64,000 nt of DNA, taken from assembly GCA_945280365.1 (NCBI GenBank), contig CALYQD010000005.1:1-64000 (forward strand), given 5' to 3'. The stretch's first letter is position 1. Each line of letters opens with the position of its first letter. This DNA comes from an uncultured Apibacter sp. Its GTDB lineage: Bacteria > Bacteroidota > Bacteroidia > Flavobacteriales > Weeksellaceae. The notes under the pieces were generated by a model. That model made no database searches, was not told the origin of the DNA, and was given only the letters and a program-made list of their open reading frames with translations. Shown piece after piece: positions 12,859-57,979 of the stretch. A program made the translations under genes and the position numbers.

Positions 12859-13680
12859 ATGTCGGTAAGAAAATTAAAACCTATCACCCCCGGACAAAGA
12901 TTCAGAATTGTTAACAATTTTGAAGAAATCACTACTTCAAAACCAGAAAAATCCTTAGTAAAAGGAATTTCTAAATCAGGAGGTAGAAATAATTCCGGAA
13001 AAATGACCATGCGTTATACCGGAGGTGGACACAAGAAACGATACAGAGAGATCGATTTCAAGAGAAATAAGTTTGGCATTCCGGCTACTGTAAAATCAGT
13101 AGAATATGATCCAAACAGAACTGCATTTATCGCATTATTGTATTATGCAGACGGTGAAAAACGCTACATTGTGTCTCCTCACGGAATTAAAGTGGGGCAA
13201 AAAGTCATTTCAGGAGAAAGTGTTGCTCCAGAAATCGGGAACGCAATGAAATTAAAAAACATACCTTTAGGTACTGTTATCTCATGTATCGAATTACGTC
13301 CAGGACAAGGAGCAAAAATGGCAAGAAGTGCAGGAACTAGCGCACAACTAATTGCTAGAGACGGAAAATATGCCGTTTTAAAAATGCCTTCTGGAGAAAC
13401 TCGTATGATTTTAGTAGAATGTATGGCAACAGTTGGTTCAGTATCCAATTCAGATCATCAGCTTATTGTGTCTGGTAAAGCAGGTAGAAGCAGATGGTTA
13501 GGAAGAAGACCAAGAACAAGGCCGGTAGCAATGAACCCTGTAGATCACCCAATGGGAGGTGGTGAAGGTAGATCAACGGGAGGACATCCAAGATCTAGAA
13601 AAGGTATGCCTGCAAAAGGCTACAAGACTCGTTCAAAGAAAAAAGAATCGAATCGTTATATATTACAAAAAAGAAAATAA
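12859..13680 (+). CDS. rplB: 50S ribosomal protein L2
   Basis: [50 protein letters not shown]. Confidence 0.98.
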
Positions 13681-46611: not shown

Positions 46612-47601
46612 TTAGGGCAATTGTTCCATAATATATTGTTTAGGTGTTTTTCCATAAAATTTTTTAAAAGAAGTTATAAAATGAGAAGAACTTTTATACC
46701 CAACCGCTAAAGCTATTTCGTTTATAGGATATTTATTATACAGCATTTGATGAGCATGTTTCATACGCACGTTTGTTATATAATCATGAATAGTACATTT
46801 ATTTAGAATTTTAAAGCCAGTTTTGAGTTTCAATTCATTTAAATGAATAATTTTAGAAAGTTGCTTAATTGTCGGAGGCTCTTCATAATGAGTATTTAGA
46901 TAAGCTTCAGCCATATTAATCTTATCTAAATCTTCTTTTTTTATAAGATTAACCACCTTATACTTTGTAGATAATTCTGTTAAAATTAATAAAAATAATT
47001 CTTTGAATTTAATATGATAATAGCTGTGACCCAATACTCCAATTTCTGAATTTTTAACTATTTCACTTAATATATTTACGATATTAAAATTAACAGGTAA
47101 AAATATTTCACCAAAATTTATATAATTATCGGATTTTATTTTCCTATATAATATAGTTTCTGAAAACCATTTTTCATTTTTAAATATAGATAAAATAAAT
47201 GATTTTGAAATAAAGATTCTTGTATAGTTTATAGTCTTTTTTTGACTAAACACCTTTATATCTATATTATCTTTATTTTTAAAAGCTAATTGTAAAAAAC
47301 CTGATTGAATATCTTTTATAGTTTTAGTTAAAGGCTTAATTATTTGTACTTTACCTTTTAATAATAATGATAATTGTATATAGTCTTTTTCTATAGACAA
47401 CGAATTTGCGAAATTGTTTAATACAGTAAAATTTTGAAAAATTATACAAAATCCACTGGTATGTATAACTTTCTGCAGTCCACTAGCACAATTTGTTTCA
47501 ATATAATTTTGGTTTATAGTAATAGGAAAATTAATATTCAACTCATCTTGAATTTCCAGTTTTAACGAGAATTTCTTATCTATTTCAGAATAAATACGCA
47601 T
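46612..47601 (-). CDS. AraC family transcriptional regulator
   Basis: C-terminal double HTH: NTHYEEPPTIKQLSKIIHLNELKLKTGFKILNKCTIHDYITNVRMKHAHQML...IALAVGYKSSSHFITSFKKFYGKTPKQY; divergent to a TonB receptor. Confidence 0.92.
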   Translation of the reverse strand: MRIYSEIDKKFSLKLEIQDELNINFPITINQNYIETNCASGLQKVIHTSGFCIIFQNFTVLNNFANSLSIEKDYIQLSLLLKGKVQIIKPLTKTIKDIQSGFLQLAFKNKDNIDIKVFSQKKTINYTRIFISKSFILSIFKNEKWFSETILYRKIKSDNYINFGEIFLPVNFNIVNILSEIVKNSEIGVLGHSYYHIKFKELFLLILTELSTKYKVVNLIKKEDLDKINMAEAYLNTHYEEPPTIKQLSKIIHLNELKLKTGFKILNKCTIHDYITNVRMKHAHQMLYNKYPINEIALAVGYKSSSHFITSFKKFYGKTPKQYIMEQLP

Positions 47602-47673
47602 TATACTATTTATGTTATTTTTTGTACCAAATATGGTATTATTATATGTTATTTAATTTTACTTTTGTCAATA

Positions 47674-47698
47674 ATCTTTATTTAGTCTAAACAAAGAT
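47674..47698. promoter_or_regulatory. Candidate operator/divergent promoter inverted repeat
   Basis: ATCTTTATTTAG-t-CTAAACAAAGAT, 11/12 arm match; minus strand contains TATCTTTG (47692-47699). Confidence 0.55.
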
Positions 47699-47738
47699 AA
47701 GAAATAAAAAATATTTGAGAGATATAACTTACTACTCC

Positions 47739-50135
47739 ATGAAATTATTGATAACTATTTTAATTATTTGTTCATTTTCAGATCATTTATATGCACAGTT
47801 TGGAATAATAGAGGGAAAAGTTAAATCACATAATATTCCTCTAAAGGAAATAAAAGTCGAAGTTGAAAGTACCGACTATGCTACTAAAACAGATCAAAAT
47901 GGATATTTTAAACTTTTTTTACCTGAAGGGAATTATTTTCTCATTTTTTCAAAAGATGAGTATGAAAATCAGCGTCTTAATATTAGCATAAAAAAAGAAG
48001 AGAATAAAAATATTGTAATTGAACTTAAAACTATACAATATAAAGATATTGAAGATGTAATAATTAAAGGGAAAACAGCTATCCAAAAAACAAAAGAAAT
48101 TCCTTTTAGTGTCACTGTATTAGATGCTAAATCATTTTATAATAGTTCATTGGATTTGGCGCATATGCTTGAAAAAGCTCCAGGAGTCAAAATAAGGGAA
48201 TCGGGAGGAGTAGGTTCAGACATGTCTATCTCATTAAATGGTTTTACAGGTAAACATGTAAAATTATTTATGGATGGTGTCCCTATGCAGGGATTTGGAA
48301 CAGCTTTTCAATTAAATAATATTCCTGTAAATATTGCGGATCGCATTGAAATATATAAAGGGGTGGTTCCTATTGAATTTGGTACAGATGCCATTGGAGG
48401 AGTAATTAATATTGTAACAGCACAAAGCGCAAATACCTACATGGATTTATCCTATTCATCTGGTTCTTTTAATACCTATAAAACCAATATTAATTTCGGT
48501 CATACAACAAACTCCGGATTTACAATTCAATTAAACGCTTTTCAAAACTATTCAGATAACAATTATAAAGTCAAAACCTCTGTATTAGATTTAAAAACAA
48601 ATGTTTTTTCATCAGAAAAATTTTGGGTAAAAAGATTTCATGGTAAATATCACAACGAGACAGGTATCTTAAAATTAGGGTTTGTTAAAAAAAGTTGGGC
48701 AGATCGATTTTTAATCGGAATTACATTAGGAGAAGAATATGCCGATGTACAAAATGCTAATTTGATGGAAATTGTGTATGGTTTGAAAAAAAGAATGGGA
48801 ACGACTGTTATGCCTTCTTTGGTTTATGAGAAGAATAATTTTTTAATTAAAAAATTAAACTTCAAACTGACGGGTAACTATAATCGAAATTATAATAAAA
48901 ATACAGATACGGCAGCGAGACAATATAATTGGTTTGGAGATTATGTACCAAAAAAAACTAAGGGAGAAGGAATTTATTCACTTTCAAAATTTTTCAATGA
49001 TAATTATTCTGCTACAGCTAATCTAAGCTATAAGTGGAATGAAATGCATTCTTTTTCAATTAATGATGTTATAACAGATTTTAAAAGAAAAAAATCTGAT
49101 CGGGTTTCCATAGTAGAAATAGGCTCTGTAAAAGACACAATGCGTAGAACCAATCTAAAAAATATTTTGGCGGGATCATATAAATTTAATTATCGAAATA
49201 TATGGAATGCGATTGCTTTTGGGAAATATTATTATGAAAAAGTAAAGGGGCCTAAAAATATTTCTACTGTAACAAACGGTTCAAAATACGTTGAAAACAC
49301 GGAAAAGTTTAATACCACTGGATATGGAATTGCATTTACATATTTTTTAAAAGATTATCAGCTAAAAGGATCTTTTGAAAAAGCGTTTCGGTTACCAACA
49401 GATAATGAGCTCTTTGGAGATGAAGTATTAGAGATGGGTAATTCAGTTTTAAAAGCAGAAAATTCAATGAACTATAATATTGGAATGATACTCAACAAAG
49501 AATTTAAAAATTCCAATGCTATATATTTTGATATAAATGGATATTACAGAGATACTCGAGACTATATCCGGCGAATCATTGAGCAACATTATGGAACGGC
49601 AACCTATGTAAACCATGGAAAAGTGCGAAATATAGGAGTAGATGCAGAGGTTAAATTTTATTATAAAAATAAGTATATGATTGGAGGAAATATAACTTAT
49701 CAAGATATAAGAAATAAAGAACGTTATTCCTCAATAAGTGGAAATAGAAAAGATATTACCTATAATGACAGAATTCCTAATGTTCCTTATTTTTTCGGAA
49801 ATGTTGATGCAGCTTATTACATCAATAATATCGTACATAAAGGGAATAACTTAAGTATTGGGTACACATTTAACTTTATAGAGAAATTTTATCTCAACTG
49901 GGAAAGTTTAGGAACAAAAAAATCAAAATATACTTTACCCGGGCAATTATCTCATGATATAATCATAAACTATACTTTCAATAAAGGAGCATTTAATGTT
50001 TCATTTGAACTAAAGAATTTAACCAATGAATTTCTTTATGATAATTATAGCTTACAGAAGCCAGGAAGAGCTTATTATATCAAATTAAGGTATTTATTTT
50101 ATCAATTACAAAAAAAATCTAAAAAATCAATATGA
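47739..50135 (+). CDS. TonB-dependent receptor with carboxypeptidase-like N-terminal domain (XusA-like)
   Basis: ATG at 47739 gives a signal peptide; plug domain DLAHMLEKAPGVKIRESGGVGSDMSISLNGFTGKHVKLFMDGVPMQGFG...IEIYKGVVPIEFGTDAIGGVINI; C-terminal barrel. Confidence 0.93.
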   Translation: MKLLITILIICSFSDHLYAQFGIIEGKVKSHNIPLKEIKVEVESTDYATKTDQNGYFKLFLPEGNYFLIFSKDEYENQRLNISIKKEENKNIVIELKTIQYKDIEDVIIKGKTAIQKTKEIPFSVTVLDAKSFYNSSLDLAHMLEKAPGVKIRESGGVGSDMSISLNGFTGKHVKLFMDGVPMQGFGTAFQLNNIPVNIADRIEIYKGVVPIEFGTDAIGGVINIVTAQSANTYMDLSYSSGSFNTYKTNINFGHTTNSGFTIQLNAFQNYSDNNYKVKTSVLDLKTNVFSSEKFWVKRFHGKYHNETGILKLGFVKKSWADRFLIGITLGEEYADVQNANLMEIVYGLKKRMGTTVMPSLVYEKNNFLIKKLNFKLTGNYNRNYNKNTDTAARQYNWFGDYVPKKTKGEGIYSLSKFFNDNYSATANLSYKWNEMHSFSINDVITDFKRKKSDRVSIVEIGSVKDTMRRTNLKNILAGSYKFNYRNIWNAIAFGKYYYEKVKGPKNISTVTNGSKYVENTEKFNTTGYGIAFTYFLKDYQLKGSFEKAFRLPTDNELFGDEVLEMGNSVLKAENSMNYNIGMILNKEFKNSNAIYFDINGYYRDTRDYIRRIIEQHYGTATYVNHGKVRNIGVDAEVKFYYKNKYMIGGNITYQDIRNKERYSSISGNRKDITYNDRIPNVPYFFGNVDAAYYINNIVHKGNNLSIGYTFNFIEKFYLNWESLGTKKSKYTLPGQLSHDIIINYTFNKGAFNVSFELKNLTNEFLYDNYSLQKPGRAYYIKLRYLFYQLQKKSKKSI

Positions 50136-51361
50136 GAGATCTATTTTTTACAACGAAATTTTTTTTACTAATAACTATTTCCACATTTATAATAGGCTGT
50201 GGAAGTGATGACAATGTAAATGATTTTGACAATAACGGATATGATGATGCTACTCAAAAATTTGTAATAGCAGCTACCATGGGGAGTTCAAGCTATATGT
50301 TGGCATCAGATCATTTAGATACTGGTACAACAACTATGTCCAGAAATGGGGTAGAGGTTGGGAGAGTATTTACTCATTTTATAAATAATAATTATAAGTC
50401 TTTAGTAGGACTTGTATATGGACAAGGAGGAGCTTATGTTGGATATTGCTTCATTCTTGGACAAAACGGCAAGATACAAAAATTGAAAGGAGATGGAGAT
50501 ATGGGATTTCAGGTAAATAGCTATAATACTGTAGGGAACTTTGGAGATTATATGATTGCTGCAAGAGGTTCGCAAGCTTTAGCAGATGGAACAACCGGAG
50601 CCATATTCAGTTTTATTGAACAAAAAGGAAATGATTTATCTATCAAACAAAAGACATTACATACAAATAATATTGTTGGCAATGGTTATAATCCAACCAT
50701 AAGTGGTATTGTGGATATTGGGAATGGAGAATTTCTTACTGCTTTAGTTACTCCTAATGACCCGGATAAAGTATACGTATTGGCATTAGATGAAGATTTG
50801 AATGTCAAACGAATTTATTCAGATGATAGAATCAGTTATTCTTCCGGTAGATGGCGATCCGCTATGTATTCTCAAATGGGTAAAGATGATTCCGGAAACG
50901 TATATGTTTTTTCAGGTTCTTTTGAAAGTGCAACGACAAAACCGGCTGGAGCTTTATGTATTAAAAAAGGAAGTACCTCATTTGATAAAGATTACTATTA
51001 TAACATTGAACAGGCATCAGGTGGGTATAGATTTCGAAAAGTTTTCCATATAACTGAAGATTATTTCCTTTTAGAGTTTTATAATGATTTAGATTATTCA
51101 ATTATAAGTTCTGCCTCTCAATATGCAATTCTAAAAATGAGTACAAAAACCTTTAACTGGTTAAGAGCAGGCTTTCCTTCAAAGGATCAAATCACGGCTA
51201 CCGGATGGCCATTAAGCTGTGAAGGGAAAATTTATTTGCCGGTAACTACAACTAATGAGCAACCAACTGTGTATGTAATCGATCCGAAAACTACTTCCGC
51301 AAAACGAGGCTTGGTAGTTGAATCGGAAGGAATAACAGGATTGTCGCTCTTAAAAAAATAA
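50132..51361 (+). CDS. DUF4374-like surface lipoprotein 1 (XusB-like)
   Basis: Lipobox IIGC-GSDDN; KFVIAATMGSSSYMLASDHLDTGTTTM; ATGA overlap with the receptor. Confidence 0.78.
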   Translation: MRDLFFTTKFFLLITISTFIIGCGSDDNVNDFDNNGYDDATQKFVIAATMGSSSYMLASDHLDTGTTTMSRNGVEVGRVFTHFINNNYKSLVGLVYGQGGAYVGYCFILGQNGKIQKLKGDGDMGFQVNSYNTVGNFGDYMIAARGSQALADGTTGAIFSFIEQKGNDLSIKQKTLHTNNIVGNGYNPTISGIVDIGNGEFLTALVTPNDPDKVYVLALDEDLNVKRIYSDDRISYSSGRWRSAMYSQMGKDDSGNVYVFSGSFESATTKPAGALCIKKGSTSFDKDYYYNIEQASGGYRFRKVFHITEDYFLLEFYNDLDYSIISSASQYAILKMSTKTFNWLRAGFPSKDQITATGWPLSCEGKIYLPVTTTNEQPTVYVIDPKTTSAKRGLVVESEGITGLSLLKK

Positions 51362-51394
51362 TAAAAAATAAAAACTCTTAAATAAAAGTATAGT

Positions 51395-52627
51395 ATGAAA
51401 AAAACAAATGTATTCCAAAGAGTATTCTTAAGCTTTTTGGCCGGTTATATGACTTTATCATGTAGCAGTGATGATGATAACAATAATGCTAAAACTATCG
51501 GTCCTACAAAAACAGGAAAGTTTGTAGTTGCTGCCTCTCCTGGTAGTGGAAAGTTAGGGACAGGCACCTATTTTTTAGCTCTAGATCATTTAGATTCGGG
51601 GAAAGATAGTGTATCAGGAAATCTTAACTCTGTAAAAACTACCAGTTCTTTTACACAGATTGTAGTCAATAATTCTAATAATTTAGTAGGATTCATTTAT
51701 CCGAATGGTTCAGATTTAGGACAAGGAAAATCTGGGTCAAGAGCATTTAAACTTTCTGGAGACAATAAGATTGAGGAATTAAAAGGTAGTCCATTTATAA
51801 CAGGAAGGTTTTCAGTAACAGGCAATTTTGGAAAATACATCTATGCAATATCTAATAATGATAATAGTTACATCTATGAAAGAAATGGAGATAATATGAC
51901 CCTAGTTGATAAACCTATAGATTTAGCATCCCATATGATTGAAGATAAAAAACCATCCATAACTGGAATTGCAGATAGAGGGAATAATGAAATTGCAGTT
52001 ACTTTTAAATATACGAATTCAGATAATGTATTTGTAGCCTTTATGGATTATAACTTTACTATTAAAACGGTAATACAAGATACACGTATTAGTTTTTCCG
52101 GAGGTCAGTGGAGAGGAGCTATATATTCGCAAATTTGGCCAGATCAATCAGGGAATATCTATGTATTTTCTGGAGCAGGTTCCGGAAATAAAACTACCAA
52201 AAAAGCCGGTGCGTTAAAAATAAATAAGGGGGCTATAACATTTGATTCTGACTATTTTTTTGATATAGAAACTGCTGCAGGAGGATATAAATTTAGAAAA
52301 GTTTTCCCTATTACTCAAGATTATTATTTGATTGAATTCTATAATGAAACTTCTGATTCAGGAAACACATCTAGCGCTACTCGCTTTGCTGTGGTTAAAA
52401 TGGAAAATAAGAAATTTAAATGGATTGATGGAATTCCGGACTATATTCAAATATCTAGTAACGGATGGCCATTAGCACACAAAGGTAAAATATATTTACC
52501 GTTAAACCTAGTAAGCGGTAATTCAGCCATATATGAAATTGATCCGGTGACTGGAATTGCTAAAAAAGGATTTGAGCTTGCAAGTGATAAAGAACATATC
52601 AGAGCCGTAACATACTTTGAAAATTAA
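51395..52627 (+). CDS. DUF4374-like surface lipoprotein 2 (XusB-like paralog)
   Basis: Lipobox TLSC-SSDDDN; clear paralog of the preceding ORF (ALDHLDSG, SGGQWRGAIYSQ, FRKVFPITQDYYLIEFYN). Confidence 0.78.
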   Translation: MKKTNVFQRVFLSFLAGYMTLSCSSDDDNNNAKTIGPTKTGKFVVAASPGSGKLGTGTYFLALDHLDSGKDSVSGNLNSVKTTSSFTQIVVNNSNNLVGFIYPNGSDLGQGKSGSRAFKLSGDNKIEELKGSPFITGRFSVTGNFGKYIYAISNNDNSYIYERNGDNMTLVDKPIDLASHMIEDKKPSITGIADRGNNEIAVTFKYTNSDNVFVAFMDYNFTIKTVIQDTRISFSGGQWRGAIYSQIWPDQSGNIYVFSGAGSGNKTTKKAGALKINKGAITFDSDYFFDIETAAGGYKFRKVFPITQDYYLIEFYNETSDSGNTSSATRFAVVKMENKKFKWIDGIPDYIQISSNGWPLAHKGKIYLPLNLVSGNSAIYEIDPVTGIAKKGFELASDKEHIRAVTYFEN

Positions 52628-52654
52628 GTACTTTTACTTAACTAAAATTTTAAT

Positions 52655-52682
52655 AAAGCAGTTGATAATTATCAACTGCTTT
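52655..52682 (+). terminator. Intrinsic terminator between lipoprotein 2 and the ankyrin gene
   Basis: Perfect palindrome AAAGCAGTTGATAATTATCAACTGCTTT. Confidence 0.7.
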
Positions 52683-52695
52683 AAACTATTATATT

Positions 52696-52723
52696 TTTAT
52701 TTAGTCTATATTAAGTAATATTG
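52696..52723 (+). promoter_or_regulatory. Candidate promoter/operator upstream of the ankyrin gene
   Basis: TTTATTTAGTCTA (52696-52708) exactly repeats 47677-47689; TAATATTG (52716-52723) is one mismatch from TAnnTTTG. Confidence 0.45.
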
Positions 52724-52766
52724 CAAAAAAATGTAGATTTATACCCTCTACTAAAAAAATAAATAA

Positions 52767-54236
52767 ATGAAAAGAATTCTTATAACCTTAGTATGTATTG
52801 CATCTACCTGGATGTATGCACAAATGAATAATACCTTATTGGATAATGACTTTTGGAAGAATAAACCTAATGTACAGATAGTTGAAGCGGAAATTAAAAA
52901 AGGTAATAGCCCAGTAGAATTTAATGATAATAAGTTCGATGCGGTTTCGGTTGCAATATTAAATGAAGCACCATTGGAAACTATTAAATATTTGATAAAG
53001 CAAAAGGGAAATGAAATAAATAAATTGACTCACGATAATAGAATTTATCTCCATTGGGCGGCGTTTAAGGGAAATACAGAATTAATTAAATATTTAATAG
53101 ATAAAAAAAGTGACATAAATATTGAAGATTCTCATGGATTAACTCCTCTAGTATTTGCTGCAAATGCGGGACAAACTAATATAGAAATATACCGACTTTT
53201 TTTTAACGCTGGTGTAAATCCTAAAACAAAATATAAAAACGGTACTAATATATTACTGTTAGCAATACCGTATGATTCCGATCTTCGGCTTACAGCTTTT
53301 TTACAGTCCAAGGGACTTTCTCTTTCCGATACGGATGATAAAGGCAATACTGTATTTGATTATGCAACCAAAAAAGGTAACGTTGATTTGTTGAAAAATC
53401 TAAAGGATAAGGGAGTAAAATATACAAATAATGCTTTATTTATGGCCGCTGAGGCAACACGTAGGACGGCAAATACCATTGAAGTTTTCCAATATCTGGT
53501 CGATGATTTAAAAATTAATCCACTAATTACTAATGAAGATCAACAAACTGTTCTTCATATTCTCGCTAATAAACCTGATCAGCAGCAGATTATTACCTAT
53601 TTTATAAACAAAAAAGTAGATACACAAAAAAAAGACAAAAATGGAAATACTGCTTTTATGATTAGTGCTTCTGGAAAAGATTCTAAAAATACAGAAGTAT
53701 TTTTACCTTTTGTTAAGAATATAAATGATACAAATAACAAAGGTGAAAGCGCATTAATGCTTGCGGTTAAATCAAGTACTCCTGAAATGATATCTTTACT
53801 TCTAAATAAAGGAGCCAATATCAATCAAAAAGATAATAAAGGAAATAATTTAGCGTATTATCTTGTTCAATCTTATCATCCAAGAAATAAAGATTTTGAT
53901 TCAAACTTAAATATGTTAAAGAATAAAGGGGTAAATTTCGGATTAAAACAAGAGGAAGGTAATACCATTTATCATTTAGCTATAATAAAAAACGATCTAA
54001 ATTTAATAAAAAAGCTTTCTGATCTTAATGTAGATGTGAATATAGCAAATAACGAAGGTATTACACCTTTGCAAAGGGCAGCTATGGTAGCCAAAGATGA
54101 TCAGATTCTAAAATATCTAGTATCTTTAGGTGCTAAAAAAAATGTAAAAACGGAATTCGGCGAAACAGCCTATGATTTAGCAAAAGAAAATAAAATTTTA
54201 ACTCAAAATAATATATCTGTAGATTTTTTAAAATAA
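52767..54236 (+). CDS. Exported ankyrin-repeat protein
   Basis: Signal peptide MKRILITLVCIASTWMYAQ; multiple ankyrin units (LHWAAFKGNTELIKYLIDKKSDINIEDSHGLTPL; LMLAVKSSTPEMISLLLNKGANINQKDNKGN). Confidence 0.92.
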   Translation: MKRILITLVCIASTWMYAQMNNTLLDNDFWKNKPNVQIVEAEIKKGNSPVEFNDNKFDAVSVAILNEAPLETIKYLIKQKGNEINKLTHDNRIYLHWAAFKGNTELIKYLIDKKSDINIEDSHGLTPLVFAANAGQTNIEIYRLFFNAGVNPKTKYKNGTNILLLAIPYDSDLRLTAFLQSKGLSLSDTDDKGNTVFDYATKKGNVDLLKNLKDKGVKYTNNALFMAAEATRRTANTIEVFQYLVDDLKINPLITNEDQQTVLHILANKPDQQQIITYFINKKVDTQKKDKNGNTAFMISASGKDSKNTEVFLPFVKNINDTNNKGESALMLAVKSSTPEMISLLLNKGANINQKDNKGNNLAYYLVQSYHPRNKDFDSNLNMLKNKGVNFGLKQEEGNTIYHLAIIKNDLNLIKKLSDLNVDVNIANNEGITPLQRAAMVAKDDQILKYLVSLGAKKNVKTEFGETAYDLAKENKILTQNNISVDFLK

Positions 54237-54242
54237 ACTCGT

Positions 54243-54725
54243 ATGAAAATACATATAAAATTACTAGTATACAGTTTCCTTCTTATGTTACTACCTATAA
54301 TGGGTTACTCTCAAGCACATAAATATAAATGCTTACTTCAAATGAACAACTATATAGGAGAAGGAGCATATATTGTGGTATCCTTGATTTCTCCTAAAGG
54401 GCAGTATGAAAAAACATTATATATAATGGGAGAAGATCAAAGATGGTACAATACATTAAAAGAGTGGCATAAATTCTATTCAAAAAAGAAAAGTGTTGAT
54501 GCTAAAACAGGAGCATCGGTAGCTGGAGGAGATAGAAGCACAACAACTCTAGAAATAGAAGATTCCAAAATCGATAAAGGATATAAACTTAGATTTGAAA
54601 CAGCTGTGGAAGATCAAGATTATTATGTGAAAGATTTGGAAATTCCCCTAACTACACAAACACTTTCGGGAAAAAATTCAGGGACCGGATATATTAATTA
54701 TGTGAGATTTAGTAAGATTCAATAA
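54243..54725 (+). CDS. DUF2271-like periplasmic protein with candidate flavinylation motif
   Basis: Signal peptide; DAKTGASVAGGDRSTT (54498-54518 encodes DAKTGAS); neighbours PepSY reductase and ApbE. Confidence 0.75.
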   Translation: MKIHIKLLVYSFLLMLLPIMGYSQAHKYKCLLQMNNYIGEGAYIVVSLISPKGQYEKTLYIMGEDQRWYNTLKEWHKFYSKKKSVDAKTGASVAGGDRSTTTLEIEDSKIDKGYKLRFETAVEDQDYYVKDLEIPLTTQTLSGKNSGTGYINYVRFSKIQ

Positions 54726-54729
54726 TTCA

Positions 54730-56928
54730 ATGACTCTTTCTATTTGGAGATATGCTCATTTAATTTTAGCATTAGTATCTTTTGTGTTTTTAAGTATGGC
54801 TTCCATAACGGGATCCATACTTGCTATTAATGCAATAAAAGAAAAATCTTCCTCTTATAGTATTCATGGATTAAATCATGTAAGCTTAGCCCAAACAATA
54901 TCTTCATTACAAACAAAAGTTCAAGAAATTTCTGAATTGGAGGTTTCTGAAAACTCTTATGTAAAATTAAGGGGTATTGATAAATCTGGAGATGACGTAG
55001 AGGTATATATCAACCCTAAAACTGGGGAAATGCTTGGAAAACCTAAAGATAAGAGCCAATTTATTCTTTGGATAACTTCCTTGCATAGATCCTTGTTTTT
55101 ACATGAAACCGGGCGAATACTAGTGGGTATCAATGCATTTTTACTTTTCTTAATAGTTAGTTCAGGAAGCATACTTATTATTAGAAGACAAAAAAATATC
55201 AAAAATTTCTTTTCAAAAATTAAAAAAGCTACTTTTTCCCAGTATTATCACACTCTATTTGGGCGATTGATGCTTATACCCATACTCATTATTTCTATAA
55301 CCGGAAGTTATCTGTCATTGGATAGATTTAATTTTTTTTCTAAAAAAGAATATAATACTATTCTTAATCTGCCGAAATTAAGTGATGAAAGTACACATAT
55401 CGCTTATAAAGACATCCCTTTATTTTCAACTATCAAGCTTTCAGAAATAAGAAAAGTGGAATTTCCTTTTTCTGACGATCCGGATGAATATTTCATTATA
55501 AAGTTGAAAGATAGAGAAATAACTGTTGATCAATTTATGGGATCGATTGTTTCACAAAAAGATTTTCCATTATCACAAAAGTTAATAAACGTAAGTTTAG
55601 ATCTTCATACCGGAAGAACTAATATAATTTGGGCGACATTCTTATTGGTTTCTTCTTTATTTATTTTATTTTTTATAGGTTCAGGTTTCACAATAACTTT
55701 GAAAAGAAGTAAATCTAAGTTGAAAAATAAATATAAAGCTTCAGAAAGTAAAATTATTATTTTGGTTGGGTCTGAAAATGGAAGCACATTTAGCTATGCA
55801 AATGCAATACATCAACAATTATTGTCGCAAAATTATACTTCTCATCTAACAGAGCTTAATAAATATCAGCTATTTCAAAATGCTGAATATCTACTTATAT
55901 TAACCTCAACGTATGGATTAGGAGATGCTCCCTCCAATGCGCAAAAATTTGAATCTCTTTTAAACGCATATCCGCAAAATCGAGCAATAAAATTTAGCGT
56001 AATAGGATTTGGTTCCAAATCTTATAAAGACTTTTGTTTGTATGCAAAAAATGTAAATGAAAAAATAAAAGTACAGTCATGGAGTCAACAGTTGATTGAA
56101 ATGCATACAGTTAATGATCAATCTTCTGATGATTTTGTAAAGTGGATAAAGGAATGGAATAATAAAACAAAGTTAAAATTATATGCAGACACTCACTATT
56201 ATAGTCAACGCCCTAAGAACATAAAAAAGATGAAAGTAGAAGAGGTCTATATACCTAAAGATACTAATGACACTTTTATTGTTAAATTAAATCCTGGAAA
56301 AAGGAAATATAATTCAGGTGATATTTTAGCTGTATATCCCTGTAAAGATAAAAGAGAGAGGTATTATTCCATAGCCAAAATTGATAATGAGATACAATTA
56401 TCAATAAAATATTATCCATCCGGGTTAGCTTCAGAGTACCTAATTAATAGTATAAGTGGAGATTTTATTTATGGAAGAATAATAAACAATATTCCATTTC
56501 ATTTTCCCATAAAAGCAACTCAGGTAGTTATGATAGCAAATGGAACAGGAATAGGACCGTTTTTAGGAATGATTTCCCAAAATGTTAAAAAAAGGAAAAT
56601 TTATCTTTATGGAGGTTTCAGACAGGAAACGGAGATAGTCCTAAGATATAAAGATTTTTTGGAAGAGCAAATAAACAAAAATAAGCTAGAAAAATATAGC
56701 TTATCTTTTTCATCAAATTCTGAAAACAAATACGTTATGGATTTATTGCGAAAAGATTATGATTTTTTGGTTAATTTGCTTGAAAATAACGGAGCTATCA
56801 TGATTTGTGGATCATTACAAATGCAAGTAAGCGTGGAAGAAGTTTTAGACGATATACTTTTTAAAAGAACCAATAAAAAATGTTCCGATTATAAAAAAAA
56901 TGGACAGATTTTAACAGATTGTTATTAA
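54730..56928 (+). CDS. PepSY-TM/flavodoxin/ferredoxin-NADP reductase-like membrane flavoreductase
   Basis: N-terminal PepSY-type TM with conserved His; flavodoxin segment IIILVGSENGSTFSYANAIHQQLL...TSTYGLGDAP; FNR segment ANGTGIGPFLGMISQ...AIMICGSLQMQVSVEEVL. Confidence 0.9.
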   Translation: MTLSIWRYAHLILALVSFVFLSMASITGSILAINAIKEKSSSYSIHGLNHVSLAQTISSLQTKVQEISELEVSENSYVKLRGIDKSGDDVEVYINPKTGEMLGKPKDKSQFILWITSLHRSLFLHETGRILVGINAFLLFLIVSSGSILIIRRQKNIKNFFSKIKKATFSQYYHTLFGRLMLIPILIISITGSYLSLDRFNFFSKKEYNTILNLPKLSDESTHIAYKDIPLFSTIKLSEIRKVEFPFSDDPDEYFIIKLKDREITVDQFMGSIVSQKDFPLSQKLINVSLDLHTGRTNIIWATFLLVSSLFILFFIGSGFTITLKRSKSKLKNKYKASESKIIILVGSENGSTFSYANAIHQQLLSQNYTSHLTELNKYQLFQNAEYLLILTSTYGLGDAPSNAQKFESLLNAYPQNRAIKFSVIGFGSKSYKDFCLYAKNVNEKIKVQSWSQQLIEMHTVNDQSSDDFVKWIKEWNNKTKLKLYADTHYYSQRPKNIKKMKVEEVYIPKDTNDTFIVKLNPGKRKYNSGDILAVYPCKDKRERYYSIAKIDNEIQLSIKYYPSGLASEYLINSISGDFIYGRIINNIPFHFPIKATQVVMIANGTGIGPFLGMISQNVKKRKIYLYGGFRQETEIVLRYKDFLEEQINKNKLEKYSLSFSSNSENKYVMDLLRKDYDFLVNLLENNGAIMICGSLQMQVSVEEVLDDILFKRTNKKCSDYKKNGQILTDCY

Positions 56929-56938
56929 AATATGATGT

Positions 56939-57979
56939 ATGGTTGATATGAGTAAAAATTGGAAAATAATACTAATATTTTATATTTTAATTTTATCTAT
57001 AACAGAGGGTAAAACTCAAGTACAAAGACATCGTACAACAACTCTTATGGGGTGTCGTTTTGATTTTACAGTAATTGCGGAAGATTCATTACAGGCAGAA
57101 AAATACATTGATCAGGCCATAGATGAGGTTGTTCGTATTGATAATTTGATTTCCGATTGGAAATCGGAATCTCAAATATCAAAAGTAAATCAAAATGCAG
57201 GAATACGACCGGTTAAAGTCGATCGAGAAGTTTTAGAGCTAACACGAAGGGCTATATATATATCAGAAATTACCCATGGTGCTTTTGACATAAGTTTTGC
57301 GGCAATAGATAAGATCTGGAAATTTGATGGTTCCATGAAGCATGTACCTTCGCCGAGTCAAATAAAAAAATCAATAAAAAAAATAGGATATAAAAATATT
57401 ATCTTAGATACCATAAATTCGACCATTTTTTTAAAATTACCCGGCATGAAAATCGGATTCGGATCGATAGGTAAGGGGTATGCTGCCGATAAGGCTAAAG
57501 AAGTATTGGCATATAAAAAAGTTAAAGCAGGAATCATCAATGCTTCAGGAGATATAAGCGTATGGGGAAGCCGAATGAATAGAGAAAATTGGAAAATTGG
57601 AATTGTGAACCCTTTCATCCCTTCAGATATTATTGGAGCTTTTAGCCTTAAAGAAGAATGCGTCACTACTTCAGGATCATATGAAAAATTTGTAGAACTT
57701 GAAGGGAAAAGATATTCTCATATTATCGATCCCCGAACCGGATATCCGGTAAAAGGAATTTTGAGTGTTAGTGTTGTAGGACCTAAAACCGAAATGGCAA
57801 ACGGGTTCAGTACTTCTATTATGGTTTTAGGAACGCAAAAAGGCATAGAGCTGATCAATCATTTTCCAGATTATGGATGCCTTATTATTACAGATGAAGG
57901 AGAATTAATAAAATCGAAAAATTTTAATACAAAAATAGAATTATACGATTCGGAAATAAAGCCAACATCCAAATCTTAA
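56939..57979 (+). CDS. apbE: FAD:protein FMN transferase
   Basis: TTLMGCRFDFTVIA; ISDWKSESQISKVNQNAG; GSIGKGYAADKAKEVL; INASGDISVWG; SHIIDPRTGYPVKG. Confidence 0.94.
   Translation: MVDMSKNWKIILIFYILILSITEGKTQVQRHRTTTLMGCRFDFTVIAEDSLQAEKYIDQAIDEVVRIDNLISDWKSESQISKVNQNAGIRPVKVDREVLELTRRAIYISEITHGAFDISFAAIDKIWKFDGSMKHVPSPSQIKKSIKKIGYKNIILDTINSTIFLKLPGMKIGFGSIGKGYAADKAKEVLAYKKVKAGIINASGDISVWGSRMNRENWKIGIVNPFIPSDIIGAFSLKEECVTTSGSYEKFVELEGKRYSHIIDPRTGYPVKGILSVSVVGPKTEMANGFSTSIMVLGTQKGIELINHFPDYGCLIITDEGELIKSKNFNTKIELYDSEIKPTSKS

Follow-up and report, generated by a model that had tools for sequence, protein, structure and literature searches.

Among the closest described systems are XusABC of Bacteroides thetaiotaomicron and the PepSY-like flavinylation clusters of Meheust et al. 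2021. The study of XusABC attributes reduction to XusC and names no importer for Fe(II), and all three XusB proteins tested bind a ferric siderophore, either enterobactin or ferrichrome (PMC13142918); PepSY–DUF2271–ApbE clusters with TonB genes have already been proposed to act in siderophore-iron reduction (PMC8238504). Here we analyse a 64,000-nucleotide stretch of an uncultured Apibacter sp. genome (contig CALYQD010000005.1, assembly GCA_945280365.1; hereafter the window), positions 46612–57979 of which probably hold a two-arm iron-piracy locus, with a xenosiderophore capture arm and a flavin-driven reductive arm. The locus shares with XusABC a XusA-like receptor, a DUF4374 lipoprotein encoded directly 3′ of it and a PepSY_TM protein in one gene run, and with the flavinylation clusters, some of which include TonB genes, it shares a PepSY_TM protein with an NAD-binding part, DUF2271 and ApbE; both halves are of known kinds. 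The locus bears on how iron is released from imported siderophores in the periplasm of Bacteroidota. An initial annotation made from the sequence of the window had proposed that siderophore capture is coupled here to flavin-based reduction, and the gene parts for such coupling are present, the general idea not being new (PMC8238504).

The source genome (2.57 Mb, 99% complete) falls in the same genus group as Apibacter mensalis, its closest named relative by reductase sequence (68% identity). The eight open reading frames of the initial annotation were confirmed at their coordinates, and Pfam domains could be assigned to all eight. The features of the locus are as follows:

46612–47601, minus strand: AraC-family regulator (Pfam HTH_18, 1.2e-18)
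47677–47695, unstranded: palindrome copy 1, TTTATTTAGTCTAAACAAA, 19 bp, candidate iron-responsive operator 5′ of the receptor (position weight matrix (PWM) score 21.1, the top score in the window)
47715–50135, plus strand: XusA-like TonB-dependent receptor, probable start 47739 (Pfam Plug, TonB barrel and N-terminal CarbopepD_reg_2)
50132–51361, plus strand: XusB1, predicted DUF4374 surface lipoprotein of the short hookless type (DUF4374, 1.3e-62; lipobox C followed by GSDDN)
51395–52627, plus strand: XusB2, second predicted DUF4374 surface lipoprotein (DUF4374, 3.2e-47; lipobox C followed by SSDDD)
52696–52714, unstranded: palindrome copy 2, TTTATTTAGTCTATATTAA, 5′ of the reductive operon (PWM score 18.8)
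52767–54236, plus strand: exported ankyrin-repeat protein, Ank (Ank_2, 3.2e-46)
54243–54725, plus strand: exported DUF2271 protein, predicted flavinylated electron carrier (DUF2271, 3.6e-36; TGAS at 54507–54518)
54730–56928, plus strand: inner-membrane reductase, 732 residues (PepSY_TM at 54754–55707, Flavodoxin_1 at 55759–56157, and NAD_binding_1, the NAD(P)-binding part of FNR, at 56530–56835)
56939–57979, plus strand: ApbE, exported FAD:protein FMN transferase (FAD, flavin adenine dinucleotide; FMN, flavin mononucleotide; ApbE, 1.8e-81)

The receptor start ATG at 47739 is likelier than the TTG at 47715 because orthologues are 794–795 residues long. Export and lipoprotein signals were judged by eye, without a predictor, and on that basis DUF2271, Ank and ApbE have signal-peptide-like N termini. 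As the initial annotation had described, the AraC gene diverges from the receptor, two DUF4374-like lipoproteins follow, and the exported ankyrin, DUF2271, PepSY-TM/flavodoxin/FNR and ApbE genes lie closely packed on one strand; intergenic gaps among the seven plus-strand genes from receptor to ApbE run from −4 to 140 bp. The complete eight-gene layout recurs in two other Apibacter-genus genomes (L034 and L035), and a third (L036) retains the order from receptor to ApbE with a pair of additional genes within it; the sequence read there stops short of any AraC gene. These inserted genes, at 12954–14155 of L036 between XusB2 and Ank, encode two similar exported proteins of 192–196 residues. An AraC gene also adjoins several classic Flavobacterium Xus loci, and a divergent one is present at several of the classic DUF4374 loci whose receptors group with those of Apibacter; in Apibacter it is likely a local regulator of the capture arm.

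The receptor is of the XusA type. It matches B. thetaiotaomicron XusA (9gbc_A) across residues 14–795 with a phmmer E value of 1.4e-178, the next PDB match being BtuB at 1e-14, and this full-length match is joined by a 100/100 tree grouping with DUF4374-linked receptors. Adjoining it are two XusB-type DUF4374 lipoproteins of about 410 residues each, 40% identical to one another, for which sequence supports both assignments and fold supports that of XusB1. PDB chains of XusB are matched by XusB1 at 1e-32 and by XusB2 at 1e-24 (1.5e-14 for XusB2 against B. fragilis XusB), and the structure model of XusB1, whose middling confidence (predicted local distance difference test (pLDDT) 73, built on three sequences) restricts its use to fold class, has the B. 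fragilis XusB chains 9hqk and 9hqe as top Foldseek matches. The Xus-like capture arm of the initial annotation is upheld by these matches.

To place the reductive arm, we compared the 80 best Bacteroidota loci, reading up to 10 kb on each side, and 297 genomes from across the phylum. DUF2271 adjoins the reductase in 78 of the 80 loci and Ank lies upstream of DUF2271 in 77, with the same order and strand of Ank, DUF2271 and PepSY, so that the arrangement is far beyond chance and the neighbourhood conservation that the initial annotation had set out as a check is found; ApbE was found within 6 kb in 71/80. Two loci without Ank (L073 and L105) end at contig edges, and the third (L111) has DUF2271 but yielded no Ank homologue in the 4.8 kb covered 5′ of the reductase. 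Among the 297 genomes, a strong Ank match (E < 1e-80) occurs in 20, all of which have DUF2271 above the cut-off; DUF2271 occurs in 22, and the two without Ank have it in a longer, apparently fused frame. The pair is adjacent by coordinates in 19 of the 20 genomes and split over contigs in the remaining one. Taken with the 77 loci, this co-occurrence shows Ank to be a near-obligate companion of DUF2271 across Bacteroidota. One genome carries a tandem pair of Ank homologues (G311:C129:89-3015). The conserved unit is Ank–DUF2271–PepSY/FNR(–ApbE) and the AraC–XusA–XusB set is the variable part; DUF2271, ApbE and ankyrin, which the initial annotation took for additions to a minimal xusABC, are instead members of a distinct reductive operon that is widely conserved. 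The idea that DUF4374 is a fixed component of the module was rejected: in the 297 genomes, apart from the source genome, DUF4374 and DUF2271 never share a locus, and the seven others that carry both always have them at separate loci. Two related plasmid cassettes, from Marinobacter and Salmonella (L236 and L237), encode a ferric-reductase-like protein, PepSY, DUF2271, PepSY-FNR and VIT1 together with AraC and two-component regulators; Ank is not present in either.

A XusA-like receptor stands near the module in 25 loci, and in all 25 a XusB-like lipoprotein lies beside it. In 21 of these the lipoprotein has 440–470 residues (the 445-residue type); the remaining four are L084 and Apibacter L034–L036. 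No Pfam match above the cut-off was found for any of the nine of 21 that were scanned, and a sequence search of the PDB with the 445-residue type gave no match. In a profile comparison by hhalign, however, the type scores 99.5% (E = 3e-23), and the top seven PDB structure matches of its AlphaFold model (pLDDT 84.7) are all XusB, which led us to reject the idea that these neighbours are unrelated lipoproteins; by profile and predicted fold they are a XusB-like family missed by Pfam. In 20 classic DUF4374 loci elsewhere, a receptor is present in 20/20 and a short, XusC-like PepSY gene lies directly 3′ of DUF4374 in 14; Ank, DUF2271 and the fused reductase were not found near these 20. The receptor tree joins the module-type receptors in one clade (100/100) that excludes Apibacter, and places the Apibacter receptors in the other clade with those of classic DUF4374 loci (100/100), so the Apibacter locus is a classic Xus capture arm set on a reductive module. 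An independent case, L084 (a Flavobacterium metagenome-assembled genome), has XusA–XusB–XusC immediately 5′ of Ank–DUF2271–PepSY–ApbE. The XusA and XusB parts of the Xus-like locus in the initial annotation hold. No separate short XusC was found in the source genome, where the sole PepSY_TM gene detected genome-wide is the 732-residue flavodoxin–FNR fusion in its place. The reductive module can carry a XusA/XusB pair in the absence of XusC, which argues that it performs the XusC job.

Two observations weigh against tying the arms together. In 60 of the 80 module loci no XusA-like receptor lies within the stretch read, and A. mensalis has lost its capture arm and keeps an intact reductive arm: a clean deletion of about 5.7 kb from AraC to XusB2 (L033:12685-13360) leaves remnants of both genes, the truncated AraC end (window ~46815) being joined to the last XusB2 codons (window ~52484) with homologous remnant on either side. 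It follows from these two observations that the reductase is useful apart from this capture arm as well. They are what one would expect if the reductive arm were a general periplasmic reductase of Fe(III), or of another metal or quinone, that feeds FeoB and is co-regulated with the xenosiderophore arm yet functionally independent of it, as are the Pseudomonadota cassettes, which adjoin ferric-reductase-like and VIT1 genes and no receptors. We consider this independence unlikely, given that XusA/XusB pairs of the classic type have been joined to the arm on at least two occasions (Apibacter and L084) and those of the 445-residue type widely, and that the source genome yielded no separate XusC.

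The residues after the lipobox Cys in XusB1 (C-GSDDN) and XusB2 (C-SSDDD) resemble, in a comparison by eye, the SDDFE/SDDDD lipoprotein export signals of Flavobacterium and Bacteroides (PMC5080379). Both proteins belong to a short DUF4374 group without the siderophore-contact hook, a form tied to hydroxamate siderophores such as ferrichrome (PMC13142918). We do not assign the ligand to the hydroxamate class despite this, because the alignments pair R167-S168 of the B. thetaiotaomicron ligand loop L2 with Arg-Ser in XusB1 and with Arg-Gly in XusB2. The ligand of the capture arm is not readable from sequence, ligand sites vary among DUF4374 members and the hook is missing, all of which would suit import of heme or another iron chelate; that reading is nonetheless quite improbable, as ferric siderophore was bound in three of three XusB proteins (PMC13142918) and the receptor has XusA and MxcH, the model of a myxochelin receptor, as its closest matches. 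XusB of B. thetaiotaomicron (PDB 9gcy, 9hq1 and 9gbc_B) aligns with the family profile only in swapped order, profile positions 199–408 with 126–348 and then 36–138 with 351–455. The same profile, built from 25 DUF4374 family members, aligns end to end with B. fragilis XusB (3.1e-88), and no shift is seen in the main B. viscericola stretch. These alignments suggest that B. thetaiotaomicron XusB has undergone a circular permutation of some two blades, and this would account for its hook lying in blade 2 rather than 4; the term “circular permutation” is absent from PMC13142918.

Within the reductive arm, the PepSY_TM gene clusters with those for DUF2271 and ApbE as neighbouring genes (54243–57979). 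The DUF2271 protein carries the flavinylation motif TGAS, and [ST]GA[ST] is found in 78/79 homologues; since a DUF2271 protein of another species is flavinylated by ApbE at a TGAS-type motif (PMC8238504), we predict a flavinylation-ready electron carrier, as the initial annotation had read it together with a PepSY/FNR reductase and ApbE. In the reductase, H10, H119, H174 and H293 are invariant among 17 homologues and would hold two b hemes, as expected by analogy with FoxB (cited in PMC11334425). The similarity of its flavodoxin and FNR parts to CPR and CysJ makes NAD(P)H the likely electron donor. That the PepSY protein is instead an inner-membrane siderophore permease, in line with the interpretation of PepSY_TM proteins as pyochelin, ferrichrome and rhizobactin permeases (PMC7190382), is scarcely credible beside the fused flavodoxin–FNR, the four invariant His, the flavinylation partner and ApbE, all of which favour electron transfer.

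The 19-bp palindrome TTTATTTAGnCTAAATAAA lies 5′ of 24 of 26 receptors (0/26 in shuffled sequence), 73 of 92 Ank genes (6/92 shuffled) and 16 of 21 classic XusA genes (0 shuffled), and seldom 5′ of other module genes (1/93 DUF2271, 1/93 PepSY and 1/86 ApbE). The receptor and Ank sets, whose sequences are related by descent, served to train its PWM; more independent tests are the classic XusA set, whose genes are partly related, and a site about 30 bases 5′ of feoAB in the source genome (score 19.7). Genome-wide abundance was rejected as evidence, as the source genome has 10 pattern matches against 24 for the backward control, and placement alone is informative. A further match (15.6) lies at 1497–1515 of L245 in the source genome, just 5′ of a 237-residue open reading frame. 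The half-sites ATTTAG/CTAAAT are identical to those of the Riemerella Fur box, which has been tested by gel shift (PMC5609570, PMC10986502). This placement suggests that the receptor, Ank and feoAB may be under common iron control, and Fur is our proposed candidate for controlling the palindrome-bearing genes; the half-site spacing, one base here and seven in the Riemerella box, speaks against it.

The sequences directly show the genes present, their homologies, the conserved motifs, the hybrid origin and the common operator sequence; the ligand, electron route, flavinylation and regulation in the following two-arm iron-piracy scheme are inferred. By homology with the solved XusAB, XusB1 and XusB2 would bind ferric xenosiderophores at the surface and hand them over for import into the periplasm through the XusA-like TonB receptor. 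There the PepSY/FNR arm would substitute for XusC: within the FNR/flavodoxin portion of the PepSY protein, cytosolic NAD(P)H would reduce first FAD and next FMN, electrons would traverse the inner membrane via two b hemes on the four invariant His, and they would reach the FMN placed on DUF2271 by ApbE, which would convert Fe(III) to Fe(II). The Fe(II) would then leave the siderophore and be taken in by FeoB, which is encoded elsewhere in the same genome. Ank would most likely serve in the periplasm to scaffold or dock DUF2271, the weakest step of the scheme. We tentatively raise the possibility that Ank is an essential, undescribed subunit of flavin-based iron reduction in Bacteroidota, joining flavinylated DUF2271 with the ferric siderophore (or with released Fe(II), or heme) in the periplasm and so making a modular reductase to which various surface-capture arms could be attached.

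In the open-access literature searched, there appears to be no report of the hybrid, of ankyrin as a constant partner, of the XusB-like family that lacks annotation or of the common operator, and no relevant paper linking ankyrin with PepSY or DUF2271 was found. The locus offers a candidate for the whole route that leads from capture at the surface through NAD(P)H-driven reduction to FeoB, apparently under one operator and testable by gene deletion; Ank would be named as a missing part of siderophore-iron reduction in Bacteroidota, and the XusB-like family would make siderophore piracy recognisable in Bacteroidota loci invisible to Pfam. Caulobacter CCNA_03155–03159 and Alteromonas DUF4198/DUF2271 loci also hold DUF2271/PepSY genes, induced there by iron limitation, and in the portions of those reports consulted neither an ankyrin nor a XusB-type lipoprotein is mentioned for them (PMC12004947, PMC7190382). 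FoxB, the Pseudomonas siderophore reductase (cited in PMC11334425), has the same PepSY_TM core and His for two hemes, to which the Apibacter reductase adds a fused cytosolic flavodoxin–FNR and a periplasmic flavin carrier alongside. Compared with the clusters of PMC8238504, where ankyrin is not mentioned, the Apibacter locus has an added Ank gene, no DUF4198 was seen in it, and it is joined to a Xus capture arm. Compared with XusABC, it has two XusB proteins, a divergent AraC gene and, in place of XusC, a PepSY–flavodoxin–FNR fusion with Ank, DUF2271 and ApbE.

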